This document shows positions 42,539 through 47,650 of a stretch of DNA of 64,000 nucleotides, one piece after another. Position 1 is the first letter of the stretch; every line of letters begins with the position of its first letter. The stretch lies in NCBI GenBank assembly GCA_902547755.1, contig CACCPA010000003.1, positions 62,001 through 126,000 on the forward strand, in the 5' to 3' direction. The position numbers and the translations under genes were made by a program. Origin of the DNA: Halieaceae bacterium. Its GTDB lineage: Bacteria; Pseudomonadota; Gammaproteobacteria; Pseudomonadales; Halieaceae. The notes under the pieces are model-generated. The model saw only the letters and a program-made list of their open reading frames with translations. It did no database searches and was not told where the DNA came from.

Positions 42539-42584
42539 GCTCTGTTAAAAGCTCTGTTAAAAGCTCTGTTAAAAGCCCCGTTCT
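42537..42584. repeat. 12-bp tandem repeat between the hydrolase and crtD
   Basis: AAGCTCTGTTAA is repeated three times exactly (42537-42572) and once imperfectly (AAGCCCCGTTCT). The array begins in the hydrolase stop codon and ends at the crtD stop codon, filling the whole gap between the convergent genes. Each unit has TAA or TTAA, giving stops in several frames. Copy number may vary between strains. Confidence 0.85.
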
Positions 42585-44067
42585 AAGCCACGTCGCGTTT
42601 GATACGATGTGCCGCGATCGAGCCAGATAATGTCGCCATCGGCACGCCGGGGCCGGGGTGAGCACTGCCGCCTGCAAGATAAAGCCCCTTAATCCGACTC
42701 GCGGCCGATGGACGGGTGAAGCTAGAAAACATTCCATGTGATGCTACACCGTAAAGCGAGCCGCCACTCCCGGGAAAACGTTGGTGCCAGTTATCGGGGC
42801 AGGTAGTGACACAGTCCTCTTCAGAGAAGGCGAGGTTTAAACCCCCGCGACTGAGGACATCAAGTGCGTTCGTGCGCTGTTGATCGAGTTTAGAGCGGGT
42901 CCATGCGCCATGGTCTCCATCTGCCGGCGCGTTTATGAGTAATAACAGTCTTTCCTTGCCCTCGGTCGAAAGTTTTCCGTTGACGCGATCCTGGGCACAA
43001 ACATAAACGGTGGGTTCATTGCAGACCGACCTGAATTTGAAAATCGTAGTGAACTCGCGCTCGTAATCCGTAGCGAAGAACACATTGTGATGATCGAGCT
43101 CGAATCCAGAGGTGTTGGCGTTAATGCACCAGGTGATAGCGGATAGACCGCGTTCCTGTCGCTTTCGTGTGCGTGTCGATTTCACGACATCATCGCCCAA
43201 AAGCCCATCACCTAATGCTGCCGTGTCTCCATTGAAAATAATGGCATCAGCGGCCAACGTCTCGCCTGATGCAAGTGTGATACCTGTCGCCCGTCCGTTA
43301 GTGCAGTTGATCTTTCGGACCGGGCTTTGATAGTGAAACTGCGCGCCATGCTCTATTGCAAGTTCAGCAATTGCGTGGGCTAGCGCCCGCATGCCGCCGT
43401 CGACACACCACACGCCCTGCCGCTCTACATGCGCAATCAGCATCAAAGTTGAAGGGGTCGACAGTGGTGATGAGCCCACATAAGTGGCGTATCGGCCGTA
43501 GAGCTGCTTCAGCCGCGGATCTGAGAAATAGTTACCGAGTGCACTCCAGAGCGATTGGTGCGGCGCTACCGCTAGGCTCTTTAAGCCGCCATCTCGCAAT
43601 AACCGGTAGCCGAGTCGTATCGGTGAGGGTTGCGATGTGGCCATGAAGTTATCGCGGAGTAGGTTGTGGACAAGCTCTCCATCATCACAAAATCGACGAT
43701 AGCCCTGCGCATTGCGTTCGTCTGCGAATTCGGCGATTGCCTGGGCTGACTGATCTATGTCGTGAAAGAGGTCCAGATGACTTCCGTCCGTCCAAGCATG
43801 ACGAGCGAGCCGGCGACTCTCGGTCAAACGAACCCGGTCATCAAAAACAGCACCTGCGCGCTTAAACAACTCGTCAAATACCCAATGCATGGTGAAAACG
43901 GTGGGGCCGCCGTCGATGCCTACGTCACCCACCTGCCGTTGGTGCATTTTGCCGCCAGGCTCGGTATTGGTCTCGAATACATCGACTTTCCAGCCTGCAG
44001 TTGCCAGATCGACCGCAGCCGATAATCCGCCGGCGCCCGCACCGACAATGATGGCTCGTTTTGTCAT
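42583..44067 (-). CDS. crtD: 1-hydroxycarotenoid 3,4-desaturase (methoxyneurosporene dehydrogenase) CrtD
   Basis: A 494-residue FAD enzyme of the CrtI family that introduces the C3-C4 double bond into hydroxylated or methoxylated carotenoid ends. The FAD motif IIVGAGAGGLSAAVDLATAG starts at residue 5, followed by EPGGKMHQRQVGDVGIDGGP. The C-terminal signature is GLYLAGGSAHPGPGVPMATL. ATG 44067 overlaps the stop of the upstream membrane-protein gene (TAATG). The long open frame beyond this start lies inside that gene. With crtC and crtF this completes the set for spirilloxanthin-type carotenoids. Confidence 0.93.
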   Translation of the reverse strand: MTKRAIIVGAGAGGLSAAVDLATAGWKVDVFETNTEPGGKMHQRQVGDVGIDGGPTVFTMHWVFDELFKRAGAVFDDRVRLTESRRLARHAWTDGSHLDLFHDIDQSAQAIAEFADERNAQGYRRFCDDGELVHNLLRDNFMATSQPSPIRLGYRLLRDGGLKSLAVAPHQSLWSALGNYFSDPRLKQLYGRYATYVGSSPLSTPSTLMLIAHVERQGVWCVDGGMRALAHAIAELAIEHGAQFHYQSPVRKINCTNGRATGITLASGETLAADAIIFNGDTAALGDGLLGDDVVKSTRTRKRQERGLSAITWCINANTSGFELDHHNVFFATDYEREFTTIFKFRSVCNEPTVYVCAQDRVNGKLSTEGKERLLLLINAPADGDHGAWTRSKLDQQRTNALDVLSRGGLNLAFSEEDCVTTCPDNWHQRFPGSGGSLYGVASHGMFSSFTRPSAASRIKGLYLAGGSAHPGPGVPMATLSGSIAAHRIKRDVA

Positions 44068-44813
44068 TAGGTGGGTTGTACTCGTCGTACGGGCGCCATG
44101 ACAGCGCGCTGGTGGTAGATGATAAGAATCAGTCCGGTGACGAGCGGAATCGCCCAGAGACCGGGCGTCAGCGCAATCTCGGGGAGCAGGCGAACCGCAC
44201 CAAAGGCGAAAAAGGCGGTGTAGACAGAAATGCCGGCGCCGACCAAAGATTTGATGTGCTCCTTGATGCGTGCTTTGGGTGATGAGGGTTGTCGATAGAT
44301 GAACCACAGGTTTGTGGCAACGGTGGCGAAACCGACGAAGGCGATGCCCATCATCATGGGTTGATTGAGCTCGATACCGCGAATAAAGCAGTTCGCTGAG
44401 GTCGCCGTTAAAACAACCTGAAGTAGAAGATTGTGCCAGGCGCCGTTCTTTTTATGATCTCGCTTGTTACGCATGCAAAGCCAACCATGCCATGCAAGGT
44501 TGATGGTGAGTGTCGCCAAATAGAGCATCATCCAGCCAAAAATCCCCGAGATCATCTCGGGCTGCCGAAATACCTCATGGGTGGACAGGTGAGGGTGGGT
44601 GCCTGTTGGGTCGGCCAACGTCGTGATAGATATGCCTGTGGCAACCAAGCCGGTGGTGAGCATACTCGTGATAAAGATGTTTCCTGCTTGTCGATGCAGT
44701 ACACCGCCTTTCTTGCCGGCAATGGGAATCCAAACAGAAATGAGTCCGACCGTGCCGGTGATGATGTGCATGATCACCAGCGATTCGAAGATGCCATGGG
44801 TCGACAGGGTCAT
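44067..44813 (-). CDS. Seven-helix membrane protein co-transcribed with crtD
   Basis: A 248-residue integral membrane protein starting at ATG 44813 behind a GGAGG site 6 bases upstream. Seven hydrophobic segments are visible, with His residues near the first two (LVIMHIITGTVG and LHRQAGNIFI) and in the third-fourth region (LAWHGWLCM), somewhat like DUF2306-type membrane proteins. No function is recognised. It is directly coupled to crtD (TAATG) and divergent from a cytochrome P450 with 48 bases between the starts, so it is likely regulated with carotenoid genes. Confidence 0.8.
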   Translation of the reverse strand: MTLSTHGIFESLVIMHIITGTVGLISVWIPIAGKKGGVLHRQAGNIFITSMLTTGLVATGISITTLADPTGTHPHLSTHEVFRQPEMISGIFGWMMLYLATLTINLAWHGWLCMRNKRDHKKNGAWHNLLLQVVLTATSANCFIRGIELNQPMMMGIAFVGFATVATNLWFIYRQPSSPKARIKEHIKSLVGAGISVYTAFFAFGAVRLLPEIALTPGLWAIPLVTGLILIIYHQRAVMAPVRRVQPT

Positions 44814-44837
44814 ATCCGGCCTCCATACTGTAGGTAG

Positions 44838-44855
44838 TGTCAATACTATTGGATA
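44838..44855. promoter_or_regulatory. Degenerate PpsR/CrtJ operator between the crtD operon and the P450
   Basis: TGTCAATACTATTGGATA keeps TGT, the 12-base spacing and the inner CAAT...ATTG bases of the strong crtI site, but ends ATA instead of ACA. It occupies most of the 48-base gap between the two divergent genes, so it could act on both. Confidence 0.42.
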
Positions 44856-44861
44856 GTTTTC

Positions 44862-46238
44862 GTGGATGAAACACTTTACATACCACCAAAGCCCCACTCG
44901 CTTCCAGCCGTTGTCGCTTTAATCCGCTCGCTTTGGAAGGGTGATGGCAACTTATTAGAGTTGTTACCTGCCGAGGCCTATCACTTTGAAGTGGGCCATC
45001 TGGGACGTTCGCGCCGCGGCACCGTGCTCTTCAACCGGCCCTCAGCAGTGAAGGAGATCATGCGCGACGCCCAAGGCGTATTTCCCAAGAGTGACCTCAT
45101 GGTCGGTGCCCTGGATCCACTCATTGGTGAAAGCATGTTTGTCACTGATGGACCAAAATGGCGTCGGCAACGCGCGATGATTGATCCCGCTTTCAGCCTG
45201 ATGCGGCTGAATGTGGCTTACGGTGCCATGTGTGCCGCGACCGATGATCATGTCGCCGCTATCGATCAGCTAGCTACTGACGACACGCCGTTTTCCCTTG
45301 ACCTGGCCATGAGCCATCTCACAGCCGATGTGATCTGCAGGACGGTGTTCTCTACACCGTTAGCATCCGATGTCGCCAAGGAGGTATTTGACGATTTCAC
45401 GCTCTTTGAGAAGTCTGTGGCGCAAGTCGATATTTTAGGGATGATCCTAAAACCTGCATGGTCTGAAACAAAGCAAACACCAGAGGTCCTCGCTGCCTGT
45501 GAGGGCATTCGTCATCACATTGGTGCGCTCATCGATACCCATTTGGATGCAGAGGCCGGTGAGTACAACGACATTGCATCGGCAGTGATTGAAGCGAAAG
45601 ACAAAGACACAGGTTTGCCGTTTACCCGCGACGAGCTGATTGATCAGCTGGGTGTGTTCTTCCTTGCCGGCCATGAGACCACTGCGAGTGCGTTGACATG
45701 GGTGTTCTATATTTTGGCGGAGCGTCCCGAGTGGCTTGCGCGGCTGCGGGAAGAAATTGATCCCGTCATGGGCGACGGGCAACTGACGTTCGAGGAGAAC
45801 AAAAAGCTGCCGTTGACACGCGCATTTTTCAAGGAAGCCTTGCGCCTGTATCCCCCGATTACTTTCGTGCCGAGAGTGGCTTTGACAAAAGTGGAAATCG
45901 AAGGTAAGAAGTTGCCGCGTGGTGCCTTAGTCATGATTGCTCCCTGGACGCTGCACCGGCACAGCCAGTACTGGGATGATCCTCATGCGTTTATTCCCGA
46001 GCGATTCTTGCCTGAGAATGAAAAAACGTTGAATGCAGGCGCGTATATCCCGTTTGGGCAAGGACCGCACATTTGCGTGGGTGCTGGCTTTGCTCAGGTG
46101 GAGAGCTTGCTCATCATGTCTCAGCTGATCAGCCGCTTTGACTTTGAGCTACTTCCCGATCAGACCGTTGTCCCGGCAGCACGATTAACAACGAGGCCTG
46201 CGGAACAGGTCATGATGCGAGTGCGGCATCGCTCGTAG
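44862..46238 (+). CDS. Cytochrome P450 next to crtD
   Basis: A 458-residue cytochrome P450 with all hallmarks: oxygen-binding I-helix AGHETT (269-274), ExxR in KEALR (Glu325-Arg328), PERF-type sequence IPERFLPEN, and heme loop FGQGPHICVG with Cys405. It has no membrane anchor. It starts with GTG 44862; no ATG is near in frame. Redox partners are not seen in the window. The divergent position to the crtD operon and the degenerate PpsR site suggest a carotenoid or other terpenoid substrate, but bacterial P450s of this type also act on fatty acids. Its last 29 bases overlap the convergent gene at 46210. Confidence 0.92.
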   Translation: MDETLYIPPKPHSLPAVVALIRSLWKGDGNLLELLPAEAYHFEVGHLGRSRRGTVLFNRPSAVKEIMRDAQGVFPKSDLMVGALDPLIGESMFVTDGPKWRRQRAMIDPAFSLMRLNVAYGAMCAATDDHVAAIDQLATDDTPFSLDLAMSHLTADVICRTVFSTPLASDVAKEVFDDFTLFEKSVAQVDILGMILKPAWSETKQTPEVLAACEGIRHHIGALIDTHLDAEAGEYNDIASAVIEAKDKDTGLPFTRDELIDQLGVFFLAGHETTASALTWVFYILAERPEWLARLREEIDPVMGDGQLTFEENKKLPLTRAFFKEALRLYPPITFVPRVALTKVEIEGKKLPRGALVMIAPWTLHRHSQYWDDPHAFIPERFLPENEKTLNAGAYIPFGQGPHICVGAGFAQVESLLIMSQLISRFDFELLPDQTVVPAARLTTRPAEQVMMRVRHRS

Positions 46239-46605
46239 GCTGTGACTCACTTAGGGCTCGGGTGAGCTTCTGATCAAACCGCTCCACTTGGCCCTCGCAG
46301 GCCATCAACGCTGATGTATCAAGCAGCGTGCAAAGGCATCCATTGTCATCTTGCTTGATGACACACGGAAGCGGGGTAGGAAGTTGAGCGAGCATCTCAT
46401 CAGAGATTTCGTTACGGTGAAGCCACTCCACCTCGGGTCGATACTCACAATAGCTTCGCCATGCCCGTTTACCGAACGGGTTTAAATCGTGTGTGATGTC
46501 GCAGAGAGCGCAGCTTCGTGTGCCAGTCAGCTTACCGACAGCGTAAGCCAGCTCGCCGATGACCGAGAGATCAGCATCGTAGATCGCCAGAATTCGTTCA
46601 TGCAT
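46210..46605 (-). CDS. Uncharacterised small cysteine-containing protein
   Basis: A 131-residue soluble protein. The N-terminal part ILAIYDADLSVIGELAYAVG followed by SCALCDITHD (CxxC, Cys32 and Cys35) resembles a family of short uncharacterised bacterial proteins that read like YNAD...CxLC..T. Two further cysteines occur in CVIKQDDNGCLC. Function is unknown; a thiol-redox or metal-binding role is possible. It lies 7 bases after the fatty-acid-hydroxylase-like gene on the same strand, and its end overlaps the P450 gene tail-to-tail. Confidence 0.7.
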   Translation of the reverse strand: MHERILAIYDADLSVIGELAYAVGKLTGTRSCALCDITHDLNPFGKRAWRSYCEYRPEVEWLHRNEISDEMLAQLPTPLPCVIKQDDNGCLCTLLDTSALMACEGQVERFDQKLTRALSESQPTSDAALAS

Positions 46606-46612
46606 GAAGACG

Positions 46613-47500
46613 TTACGCGCGCCTTAATGTGTCAGATCGTAGGTCTGGGCCGTCATGACTCCACCCAGGCGCTTTGACTATGTAGTTGAGCTTATCTCGC
46701 CAGCGCTCTGCACGTCGCACGTCCCGCCACATCGATCCATATTCGCCAAAGGCCACCTTCAGCACTTTGTGAGTTTCAATATTTTTCGTGAGGCCGTATT
46801 TGACGGGCTCTTCAGAAATCTCCTCTGAGAATGTGCCAAATAAGCGATCCCAAATGATGAGCGTTGCACCGTGGTTTCGGTCCAGATAGCGCACATTAGA
46901 ACCGTGGTGGACTCGGTGATGTGACGGGGTATTGAAGATAAATTCAATCCATCGAGGGAATTTGTAAAAGGCCTCGGTATGCAGCCAGTACTGATAAATG
47001 AGGCTGACGCTCAGCATGGTGACGATCATGGCTGGGTGGTAGCCAAGCAGCGCCAACGGCACCCAGAAGGGGTACTTGAGGATGCGCTCACCGACGCCCT
47101 GGCGCAACGCTGTTCCGAGGTTGTAGTACTGGGAGCTGTGATGCGATATATGCCCTGCCCAAAGGAGCCGAATTTCATGATTACCTCTGTGAAAGCTGTA
47201 GTAAGTCAAGTCGTCAAGGAAGAACAACAGGACCCACCAGTACCAACTCGTATCGATGACGCCTTTCAGAGGGGAGACAGAGTAGGCGACGAACATGAGT
47301 GAAATCCCAAGAAACTTGGGGATGAGATCGACGAAAACGGTCAACAGCATGACTCGCATACTGGTCCAGAAGTCGACTGACTCGTAGTGTTGGGTGTGGC
47401 TTCGGTATGCCCAAATGACCTCGATAAACAGCGCCCCAAAGAAAAAGGGCAGGGCCATCATGACCCAGTCGTCCTGCATTACCGCTAACACATCATTCAT
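46613..47500 (-). CDS. Fatty acid hydroxylase / sterol desaturase superfamily membrane protein
   Basis: A 295-residue membrane protein with the di-iron histidine boxes of the superfamily: HRGNH, HISHHSS and HRVHHG, spaced as expected, and four to five hydrophobic helices. Members hydroxylate or desaturate lipids, sterols or carotenoid rings using O2. ATG 47500 is chosen because GGGAG precedes it by 8 bases; an ATG eight codons upstream is possible. It is upstream of the small Cys protein, probably as one operon. The substrate cannot be read from the sequence; it is not CrtZ- or CrtA-like. Confidence 0.87.
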   Translation of the reverse strand: MNDVLAVMQDDWVMMALPFFFGALFIEVIWAYRSHTQHYESVDFWTSMRVMLLTVFVDLIPKFLGISLMFVAYSVSPLKGVIDTSWYWWVLLFFLDDLTYYSFHRGNHEIRLLWAGHISHHSSQYYNLGTALRQGVGERILKYPFWVPLALLGYHPAMIVTMLSVSLIYQYWLHTEAFYKFPRWIEFIFNTPSHHRVHHGSNVRYLDRNHGATLIIWDRLFGTFSEEISEEPVKYGLTKNIETHKVLKVAFGEYGSMWRDVRRAERWRDKLNYIVKAPGWSHDGPDLRSDTLRRA

Positions 47501-47650
47501 GATCTGTGCTCCCAGAGTGCCCATGTGTTTGCTTTATAGGGGGTTTGCGATTGCATAGAGTGTAGCCGAATTATTAAAGTCACGGTGGTTAACAAAGGGT
47601 CGTTAATGACTGACCGTCCCTTCAACAATAACGTTAACGAGGAGACCATC

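Follow-up and report, generated by a model that had tools for sequence, protein, structure and literature searches.

A cytochrome P450, a seven-helix membrane protein and an ATP-grasp ligase linked to photosynthesis gene clusters in Alpha- and Gammaproteobacteria

Why a photosynthesis gene cluster should carry a cytochrome P450 is the question raised by a locus of a Halieaceae bacterium (assembly GCA_902547755.1, contig CACCPA010000003.1, positions 62,001 to 126,000; the whole 64,000-nucleotide stretch that was analysed is called the window). Next to crtD this locus holds two genes that are extras outside the established spirilloxanthin set CrtE, B, I, C, D, F (A): a P450 gene and a gene for a membrane protein, here called MEM. 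A preliminary description of the sequence had suggested that the two are tied to crtD and serve a carotenoid or lipid modification. We find that they belong, in most lineages together with an ATP-grasp ligase, to a trio that is almost certainly restricted to phototrophs. We hypothesize that the trio is a photosynthesis-dedicated module for the oxidative tailoring of acyclic carotenoid end groups, a reading to which we give slightly less than an even chance. Photosynthesis gene clusters are among the best-mapped gene sets of bacteria, and a conserved, phototroph-restricted trio spanning Alpha- and Gammaproteobacteria would mean that their pigment or membrane chemistry is incompletely known.

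Distribution and composition of the gene trio

A search with the window P450 through a sample of 140 genomes from its family gave matches in 101 of them (E<=1e-20), which split into two separate sets: an orthologue group at least 60% identical to the window query, and other P450s, those listed being at most 38% identical. Orthologues were counted in 58 genomes, PufLM in 53, and MEM and CrtD, by reading of the matches, in 57 each. The P450 occurs with MEM in 57 of its 58 genomes and with PufLM in 48; ten genomes have the P450 only and five PufLM only. All ten of the former are less than 90% complete, and among family genomes at least 90% complete every P450 carrier (23/23) has PufLM; with those that lack the P450 included, PufLM is present in 25 of these genomes.

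A scan of genome contigs with the P450 alignment returned 282 relatives, of which the best 80 loci were kept; rows within one genus are not independent, and counts of MEM and ligase in these loci are conditional on the P450, whereas the family-wide searches for both and the alphaproteobacterial search for MEM are not. PufLM is present in all 34 genomes behind the 34 non-Halieaceae loci (a set defined by record title; a few loci kept with the Halieaceae, such as L061, bear other or broader titles). These carriers include Roseibium/Labrenzia, Hyphomonas, Roseococcus, Parvularcula, Anderseniella and Steroidobacteraceae, among others. Three loci titled Acidobacteria or Candidatus Sulfopaludibacter (L115, L119, L120) have a cluster layout like that of Hyphomonas (L118) and of a Hyphomonadaceae metagenome-assembled genome (MAG; L105), pointing to misnamed records or mixed bins.

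Among 385 evenly drawn Alphaproteobacteria, 26 of which have PufLM, the P450 was found in four of the 26 phototrophs and in none of the 359 others (Fisher p 1.7e-5, uncorrected for kinship; at most four P450 candidates were scored per genome). The four profile scores of at least 584 bits all come from phototrophs and the next is 366 bits; 22 further genomes, two of them phototrophs (G425, G521), have weaker matches (E<=1e-70, at most 366 bits). A plasmid search returned eight P450 matches at E<=1e-60, all at most 38.5% identical, and the orthologue is absent there. The preliminary description had asked whether the P450 is equally common outside photosynthesis clusters; it is not, and it tracks phototrophs in the family, non-Halieaceae and alphaproteobacterial samples alike.

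The composition of the trio is nearly constant (flank-limited counts omit loci that are too short, namely 6/80 for MEM, 10/80 for crtD and 22/80 for crt or bch genes, and for the ligase 6/66 outside and 1/14 inside the window's subclade). MEM is present in all 74 loci with enough flank. It was found in 76 of the 80, and in each of these 76 it is oriented divergently at a distance of at most 275 bp from the P450; the membrane protein is, as had been suggested, a near-constant partner. The ATP-grasp gene (about 380 codons) occurs in all 66 loci outside the window's subclade, 64 of which have it no farther than 165 bp from the P450 match; in L088 it is 1.5 kb off with a gene between, and in L131 it lies beyond MEM. 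Counting well-flanked loci only, the ligase is found in 59 of 60 outside the subclade (L131 being the exception) and in none of 13 inside. Relative to the P450 it is convergent in 27 and co-directional in six of the non-Halieaceae loci. Searched family-wide, it appears in 38 of the 140 genomes, 37 of which also carry the P450. The remaining one, G006, has a completeness of 70% and shares its genus with two carriers. The 21 family carriers that lack the ligase comprise 17 of the window's subclade, G058 and G060 (98% complete) among them, and four incomplete genomes. On the ligase side, a gene of the FA_hydroxylase family is found in 13/13 well-flanked loci of the window's subclade, and a 131-aa protein was seen only in this subclade (13 loci, L054-L066). 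An alphaproteobacterial MAG also has, close to crtD-MEM-P450, an FA_hydroxylase gene (L129:5848-6750, + strand) whose product is 41% identical to the window's.

Of the 58 loci whose flank measures 12 kb or more, 55 have a crt or bch gene within it. Because the trio sits at several positions across loci (between crtD and crtB, between crtI and bchO, beside bchI, and elsewhere), it appears intact amid rearranged surroundings. The tie to crtD first described for the window holds in part: crtD adjoins MEM in 54 of 70 loci with enough flank, but the tie is that of a trio with an ATP-grasp ligase, absent in the window's subclade. The crtD copy of G038 and G039 is more distant (44%) and shares its contig with pufLM sequence. 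An RND pump near the trio (in G059, G104 and the genus of G037-G040) was considered as a further component and judged incidental, since the pumps of that genus are only 23-24% identical to that of G059. Other recurrent neighbours (clusters present in at least four loci, inspected by eye) are photosynthesis or housekeeping genes or overlapping out-of-frame open reading frames.

The three proteins and the pairing with CrtA

The window P450 matches the profile PF00067 with 275.7 bits (cut-off 22.8). It had been described as having all functional motifs, and AGHETT, ExxR and the heme loop FGQGPHICVG are indeed present, but the usual arginine of the heme-loop signature is replaced by histidine. Histidine also stands there in 117 of the 126 photosynthetic-group rows that could be read (partly redundant) and in two of six readable background P450 rows. 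Searched as a profile, the group has the plant carotene hydroxylase LUT5/CYP97A as its best solved relative (217 bits; the next protein scores 176).

An association with CrtA is seen in two genomes, G278 and G269, in which a P450 49-50% identical to the window's lies directly behind crtA in the same direction (matches of CrtA to NF045923, cut-off 300, are 308 bits in G278 and 294.7 bits in G269). The pair of G269 is on a contig other than that of pufLM, with no other cluster query gene within the fetched 20 kb, and adjoins apparent histidine-utilisation genes (from a reading of translations, with no search made). In G278 genes for a GMC oxidoreductase and a zinc alcohol dehydrogenase stand between the crtA-P450 pair and crtI (L156:11254-13959); they would suit oxidation of an alcohol product. 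Neither genome has a MEM at E<=1e-15. A search for CrtA in 70 genomes found it in none of 44 with MEM and P450, in both of those with the P450 and no MEM, and in two of 24 phototrophs without the P450; no genome of the 70 has both crtA and MEM, and no CrtA was found in the window genome (72% complete). NCBIfam scans of the window P450 and MEM left the CrtA model unmatched by either protein.

A maximum-likelihood tree of 49 P450s groups the photosynthetic ones in a single clade (support 100/99) and sets them apart from the background P450s, among whose rows the tree program warned of long branches. The first rows to split off within the clade are the CrtA-paired ones; L154, with MEM and no ligase nearby, comes next, and the rows with both MEM and ligase follow (95/85, 96/93, 100/98). 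On the simplest reading, the P450 began beside CrtA and MEM then replaced CrtA; a ligase joined them afterwards and was later lost in the window's subclade.

MEM had been described as a seven-helix membrane protein, and its AlphaFold2 model (mean predicted local distance difference test score, pLDDT, 88.7) indeed has seven long helices; no fold in the PDB matched the model at E<=0.001. Neither Pfam nor NCBIfam assigns MEM to a family above its cut-off. Across 30 sequences H16, K35, G36, H40, G44, H73, P74 and H186 are invariant. An hhalign comparison with six DUF2306 proteins from the genomes analysed gave a probability of 92.7 (E 4.4e-7, 62 columns); the similarity covers the first two helices, with a KGxxxHxxxG-like signature, and invariant histidines match in both alignments. 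A MEM-like match in G318 (212 bits, 30% identical to the window's MEM) has no photosynthesis query gene nearby and was treated as background. More distant relatives (L176, L177; 26% identity) occur in genomes without PufLM, each adjoining an apparent sensor kinase/response-regulator pair.

The model of the ligase (pLDDT 94.0) has PylC (4ffl), then biotin carboxylases and GAR synthetases, as its closest solved folds, and PF02655 was matched above its cut-off by all three ligases tested. Against NF005315 (PRK06849) the ligase scores 219 bits, the cut-off being 406, and is not a member by that model. A sequence search for solved relatives gave none at E<=0.01, and ATP-grasp relatives on plasmids (nine records) did not reveal a function.

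Possible roles of the module

We propose the following scheme for substrate, order of reactions, product and added group. MEM would oxygenate an end group of an acyclic carotenoid (spirilloxanthin series) in the membrane, which is the step, or the place, of CrtA in relatives; the P450 would further oxidise the same or a neighbouring end-group carbon; and in most lineages the ligase would join a small molecule to the carboxylate so formed, or to a related group. By the chemistry of the family, such an oxidative module should depend on O2. Since the ligase has been lost in the window's subclade, the product there should be an unconjugated oxidised carotenoid, possibly altered further by the neighbouring FA_hydroxylase-family protein. 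A bolder version, which we consider doubtful, is that MEM represents a new class of carotenoid oxygenase, non-heme or with an unknown cofactor, built on the DUF2306 fold, which displaced CrtA in some anoxygenic phototrophs and, with the P450 and the ATP-grasp ligase, makes an unseen conjugated acyclic carotenoid that is spectrally hidden because its chromophore equals that of spirilloxanthin.

Several observations weigh against carotenoid tailoring. In distribution, two family phototrophs at least 90% complete (G137, G138) lack the P450, and 22 of the 26 sampled alphaproteobacterial phototrophs lack the module; in one genus (G037-G040; L034, L035, L036, L043) the trio lies away from crtD, and its member G040 (86% complete) has the trio with neither PufLM nor crtD found. 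In L154 (G301) MEM follows the P450 non-divergently and the ligase is not nearby. The CrtA-paired P450s are only two cases, on successive branches. MEM scores 14.6 bits (E=0.038) against PF10067 (DUF2306), whose curated cut-off is 31.6. Closeness of the P450 to LUT5 is a weak clue to a carotenoid substrate, because the window sequence alone ranks an uncharacterised P450 (7wzl) first and LUT5 second, and because of two non-photosynthetic P450s one (L157) also ranks LUT5 first and the other (L160) does not. The single-sequence search and the L157 control weaken CYP97 proximity as proof of the substrate.

The pigments of cultured carriers also count against it. A 2-keto end would be expected to shift the absorption spectrum of such a carotenoid, whereas hydroxyl, carboxyl or conjugated ends would not. 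Among the carriers is Luminiphilus syltensis NOR5-1B (L082), presumably the same strain as Ivo14. Both Ivo14, in which no additional pigments were observed, and Chromatocurvus halotolerans DSM 23344 (the strain of L088) have a spirilloxanthin spectrum (PMC3679898). Any change to the carotenoid must thus spare the chromophore or be minor, and a 2-keto product is not expected to be a major pigment in these carriers. In Congregibacter litoralis KT71 the photosynthetic pigments identified are bacteriochlorophyll a and spirilloxanthin only. The bacteriochlorophyll:spirilloxanthin ratio is about 2 to 10, and cells incubated in the dark frequently contain unidentified polar compounds, yellow to orange-red in colour (PMC2654016). 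The crtD of KT71 lies outside the photosynthesis cluster, away from pufLM (PMC3176799); because G012 has the same arrangement, it is probably Congregibacter litoralis.

The plain spectra would also be expected if the module is dedicated to photosynthesis but acts on another substrate, which could be bacteriochlorophyll itself, the phytyl tail of bacteriochlorophyll, a quinone or some membrane lipid required around the reaction centre, and this is the main rival, which we consider rather unlikely. The FA_hydroxylase-family neighbour in the window's subclade would fit it, as would the loci in which the module lies beside bchI or bchO (L113, L124, L154 and the Roseibium/Labrenzia loci); the two crtA-P450 pairs, one of them without another cluster gene nearby, the mutual exclusion of CrtA and MEM in the genomes tested, and crtD beside MEM in 54 of 70 loci speak instead for a carotenoid.

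Another possibility keeps the chemistry with the P450 alone and makes MEM its membrane redox partner, quinol- or heme-linked, its invariant histidines serving as ligands. Such a role agrees with the divergent pairing, seen in 76 of the 76 fetched loci in which MEM was found, and with the invariance of H16, H40, H73 and H186. It nonetheless seems unlikely to us: the genomes of the CrtA-paired P450s contain no MEM at E<=1e-15, so that the P450 group does not always need it; MEM has no solved structural relative; and the sole role-assigned DUF2306 relative found is tied to an oxygenation step, although a catalytic role is left open by its authors (PMC12895699).

Degradation or trimming of a carotenoid, to an apocarotenoid or signal that tunes the carotenoid:bacteriochlorophyll ratio rather than yielding a functional pigment, would account for the plain spectra, and the bacteriochlorophyll:spirilloxanthin ratio and polar pigments of KT71 fit it (PMC2654016; that G012 is KT71 being our inference); we judge it improbable, as an ATP-grasp ligase would be an odd part of such a pathway and no cleavage-type enzyme was seen by eye among gene clusters common to at least four loci. 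Least probable by far is an ordinary catabolic P450 beside the cluster by chance, for although the family genomes contain many other P450s, this one forms a separate orthologue group, is restricted to phototrophs, and is linked to the cluster across Alpha- and Gammaproteobacteria in different arrangements.

The window locus and known systems

The window genome assembly is 2.09 Mb long. Its photosynthesis gene cluster includes pufC, bchY, bchC, bchO, bchD, bchI and crtI above curated cut-offs, with crtE, crtC, crtB and a methyltransferase gene recognised by best match only, below cut-offs; in the NCBIfam scan crtD scored 624.5 bits (cut-off 580). The features around the P450 are listed in the table, and the 48-base spacing and the overlap of MEM with crtD are as first described.

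Features of the window around the P450 gene (window positions)
Feature	Position	Strand	Remarks
Cytochrome P450, 458 aa	44862..46238	+	GTG start; PF00067; core gene of the module
MEM, seven-helix membrane protein, 248 aa	44067..44813	-	ATG at 44813, stop 44067-44069; distant DUF2306 relative
crtD, 1-hydroxycarotenoid 3,4-desaturase	42583..44067	-	ATG at 44067 overlaps MEM stop (TAATG); NF045637
Divergent MEM-P450 gap, 48 bp	44814..44861	.	Weak PpsR-like site at 44838-44855
131-aa protein, no known family	46210..46605	-	No Pfam/NCBIfam match; in the place of the ATP-grasp gene of other lineages
FA_hydroxylase / sterol desaturase family protein	46613..47524	-	PF04116 93 bits; downstream of P450

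A PpsR-like site in the divergent gap had been suggested as a possible connection of the P450 and MEM with crtD. The site exists (TGTCAATACTATTGGATA at 44838-44855, one mismatch to TGT-N12-ACA), but the connection is not supported. The bare pattern has 17 exact matches in the window against 13.8 expected; seven of these are AT-rich (8014, 32100, 32126, 34182, 34207, 37812, 41562), four of them forming two close pairs, and from their sequence look like genuine PpsR-type sites of the window's cluster. By a matrix built from these seven, which thus belong to their own training set and score at least 20 bits, the gap site scores 10.5 bits and ranks 14th in the window. Among 101 distinct MEM-P450 gaps (of 123, each with 30 bp of coding sequence per side; L154, with its non-divergent MEM, omitted), an exact match occurs in one against 2.3 expected from mononucleotide shuffles, and 62 gaps, against 37 expected, contain a site with no more than one mismatch (same shuffles, uncorrected for kinship). 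The motif of the window's gap is, by eye, common only to its closest relatives. Membership of the trio in a PpsR/CrtJ regulon was therefore rejected, the promoter site being weak and not conserved among orthologues.

The three-gene set of these photosynthesis clusters is apparently undescribed, as no published reference to it was found among open PubMed Central papers. In line with the preliminary description, which placed P450s outside the known carotenoid pathways, a review of purple bacteria mentions P450s twice in its available portions, never as a pathway enzyme (PMC10604819), and term look-ups in PMC3176799, PMC12654162, PMC10604819, PMC10715153 and PMC8781829 gave no P450 in such a cluster. 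A possible exception is a comparison of two Citromicrobium genomes, in which a figure legend in the section on loss of phototrophy genes lists a cytochrome P450 on the map, its position and relatedness not being readable from the legend (PMC3338782).

With known systems the module shares single features. Its ligase has the fold of PylC/PRK06849 ATP-grasp proteins (PylC 4ffl being best), and falls below the cut-off of NF005315. Carotenoid metabolism has known P450 families in CYP97 and CYP175. The CYP97 enzymes (LUT5, which is CYP97A, and CYP97C) oxidise carotenoids, and among solved proteins LUT5 scores best with the P450 profile; they are, however, plant plastid enzymes that act on cyclic ends, and with the window sequence alone 7wzl outranks LUT5. 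CYP174A1 of Halobacterium, whose deletion mutant has more bacterioruberin and has lost its purple membrane (PMC6212597), is likewise a P450 tied to the pigments of a light-using prokaryote, but one that is archaeal and associated with retinal-based phototrophy.

MEM may be compared with the fungal PraC, a DUF2306 membrane protein needed, according to a report of January 2026, for terminal epoxidation of pramanicin-A, a compound with a hydrophobic unsaturated chain; whether PraC is the catalyst was left open by the authors (PMC12895699). The likeness lies in an integral membrane protein of a family that MEM remotely resembles (by alignment with six other DUF2306 proteins) and in oxygenation on a hydrophobic chain, whereas PraC is fungal, 393 aa long with five predicted helices, and encoded in a four-gene core cluster without a P450 (PMC12895699). 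With the module, DUF2306-like membrane proteins can be studied in a bacterial system. CrtA (spheroidene monooxygenase, the 2-ketolase of spheroidene and spirilloxanthin) is encoded in photosynthesis clusters and oxygenates the end groups of acyclic carotenoids in an O2-dependent reaction, as we propose for the module; its gene directly precedes the same P450 group in G278 and G269. CrtA differs in belonging to the heme proteins outside the P450s (PMC10604819), and it is absent from the 44 genomes tested that carry MEM and the P450.
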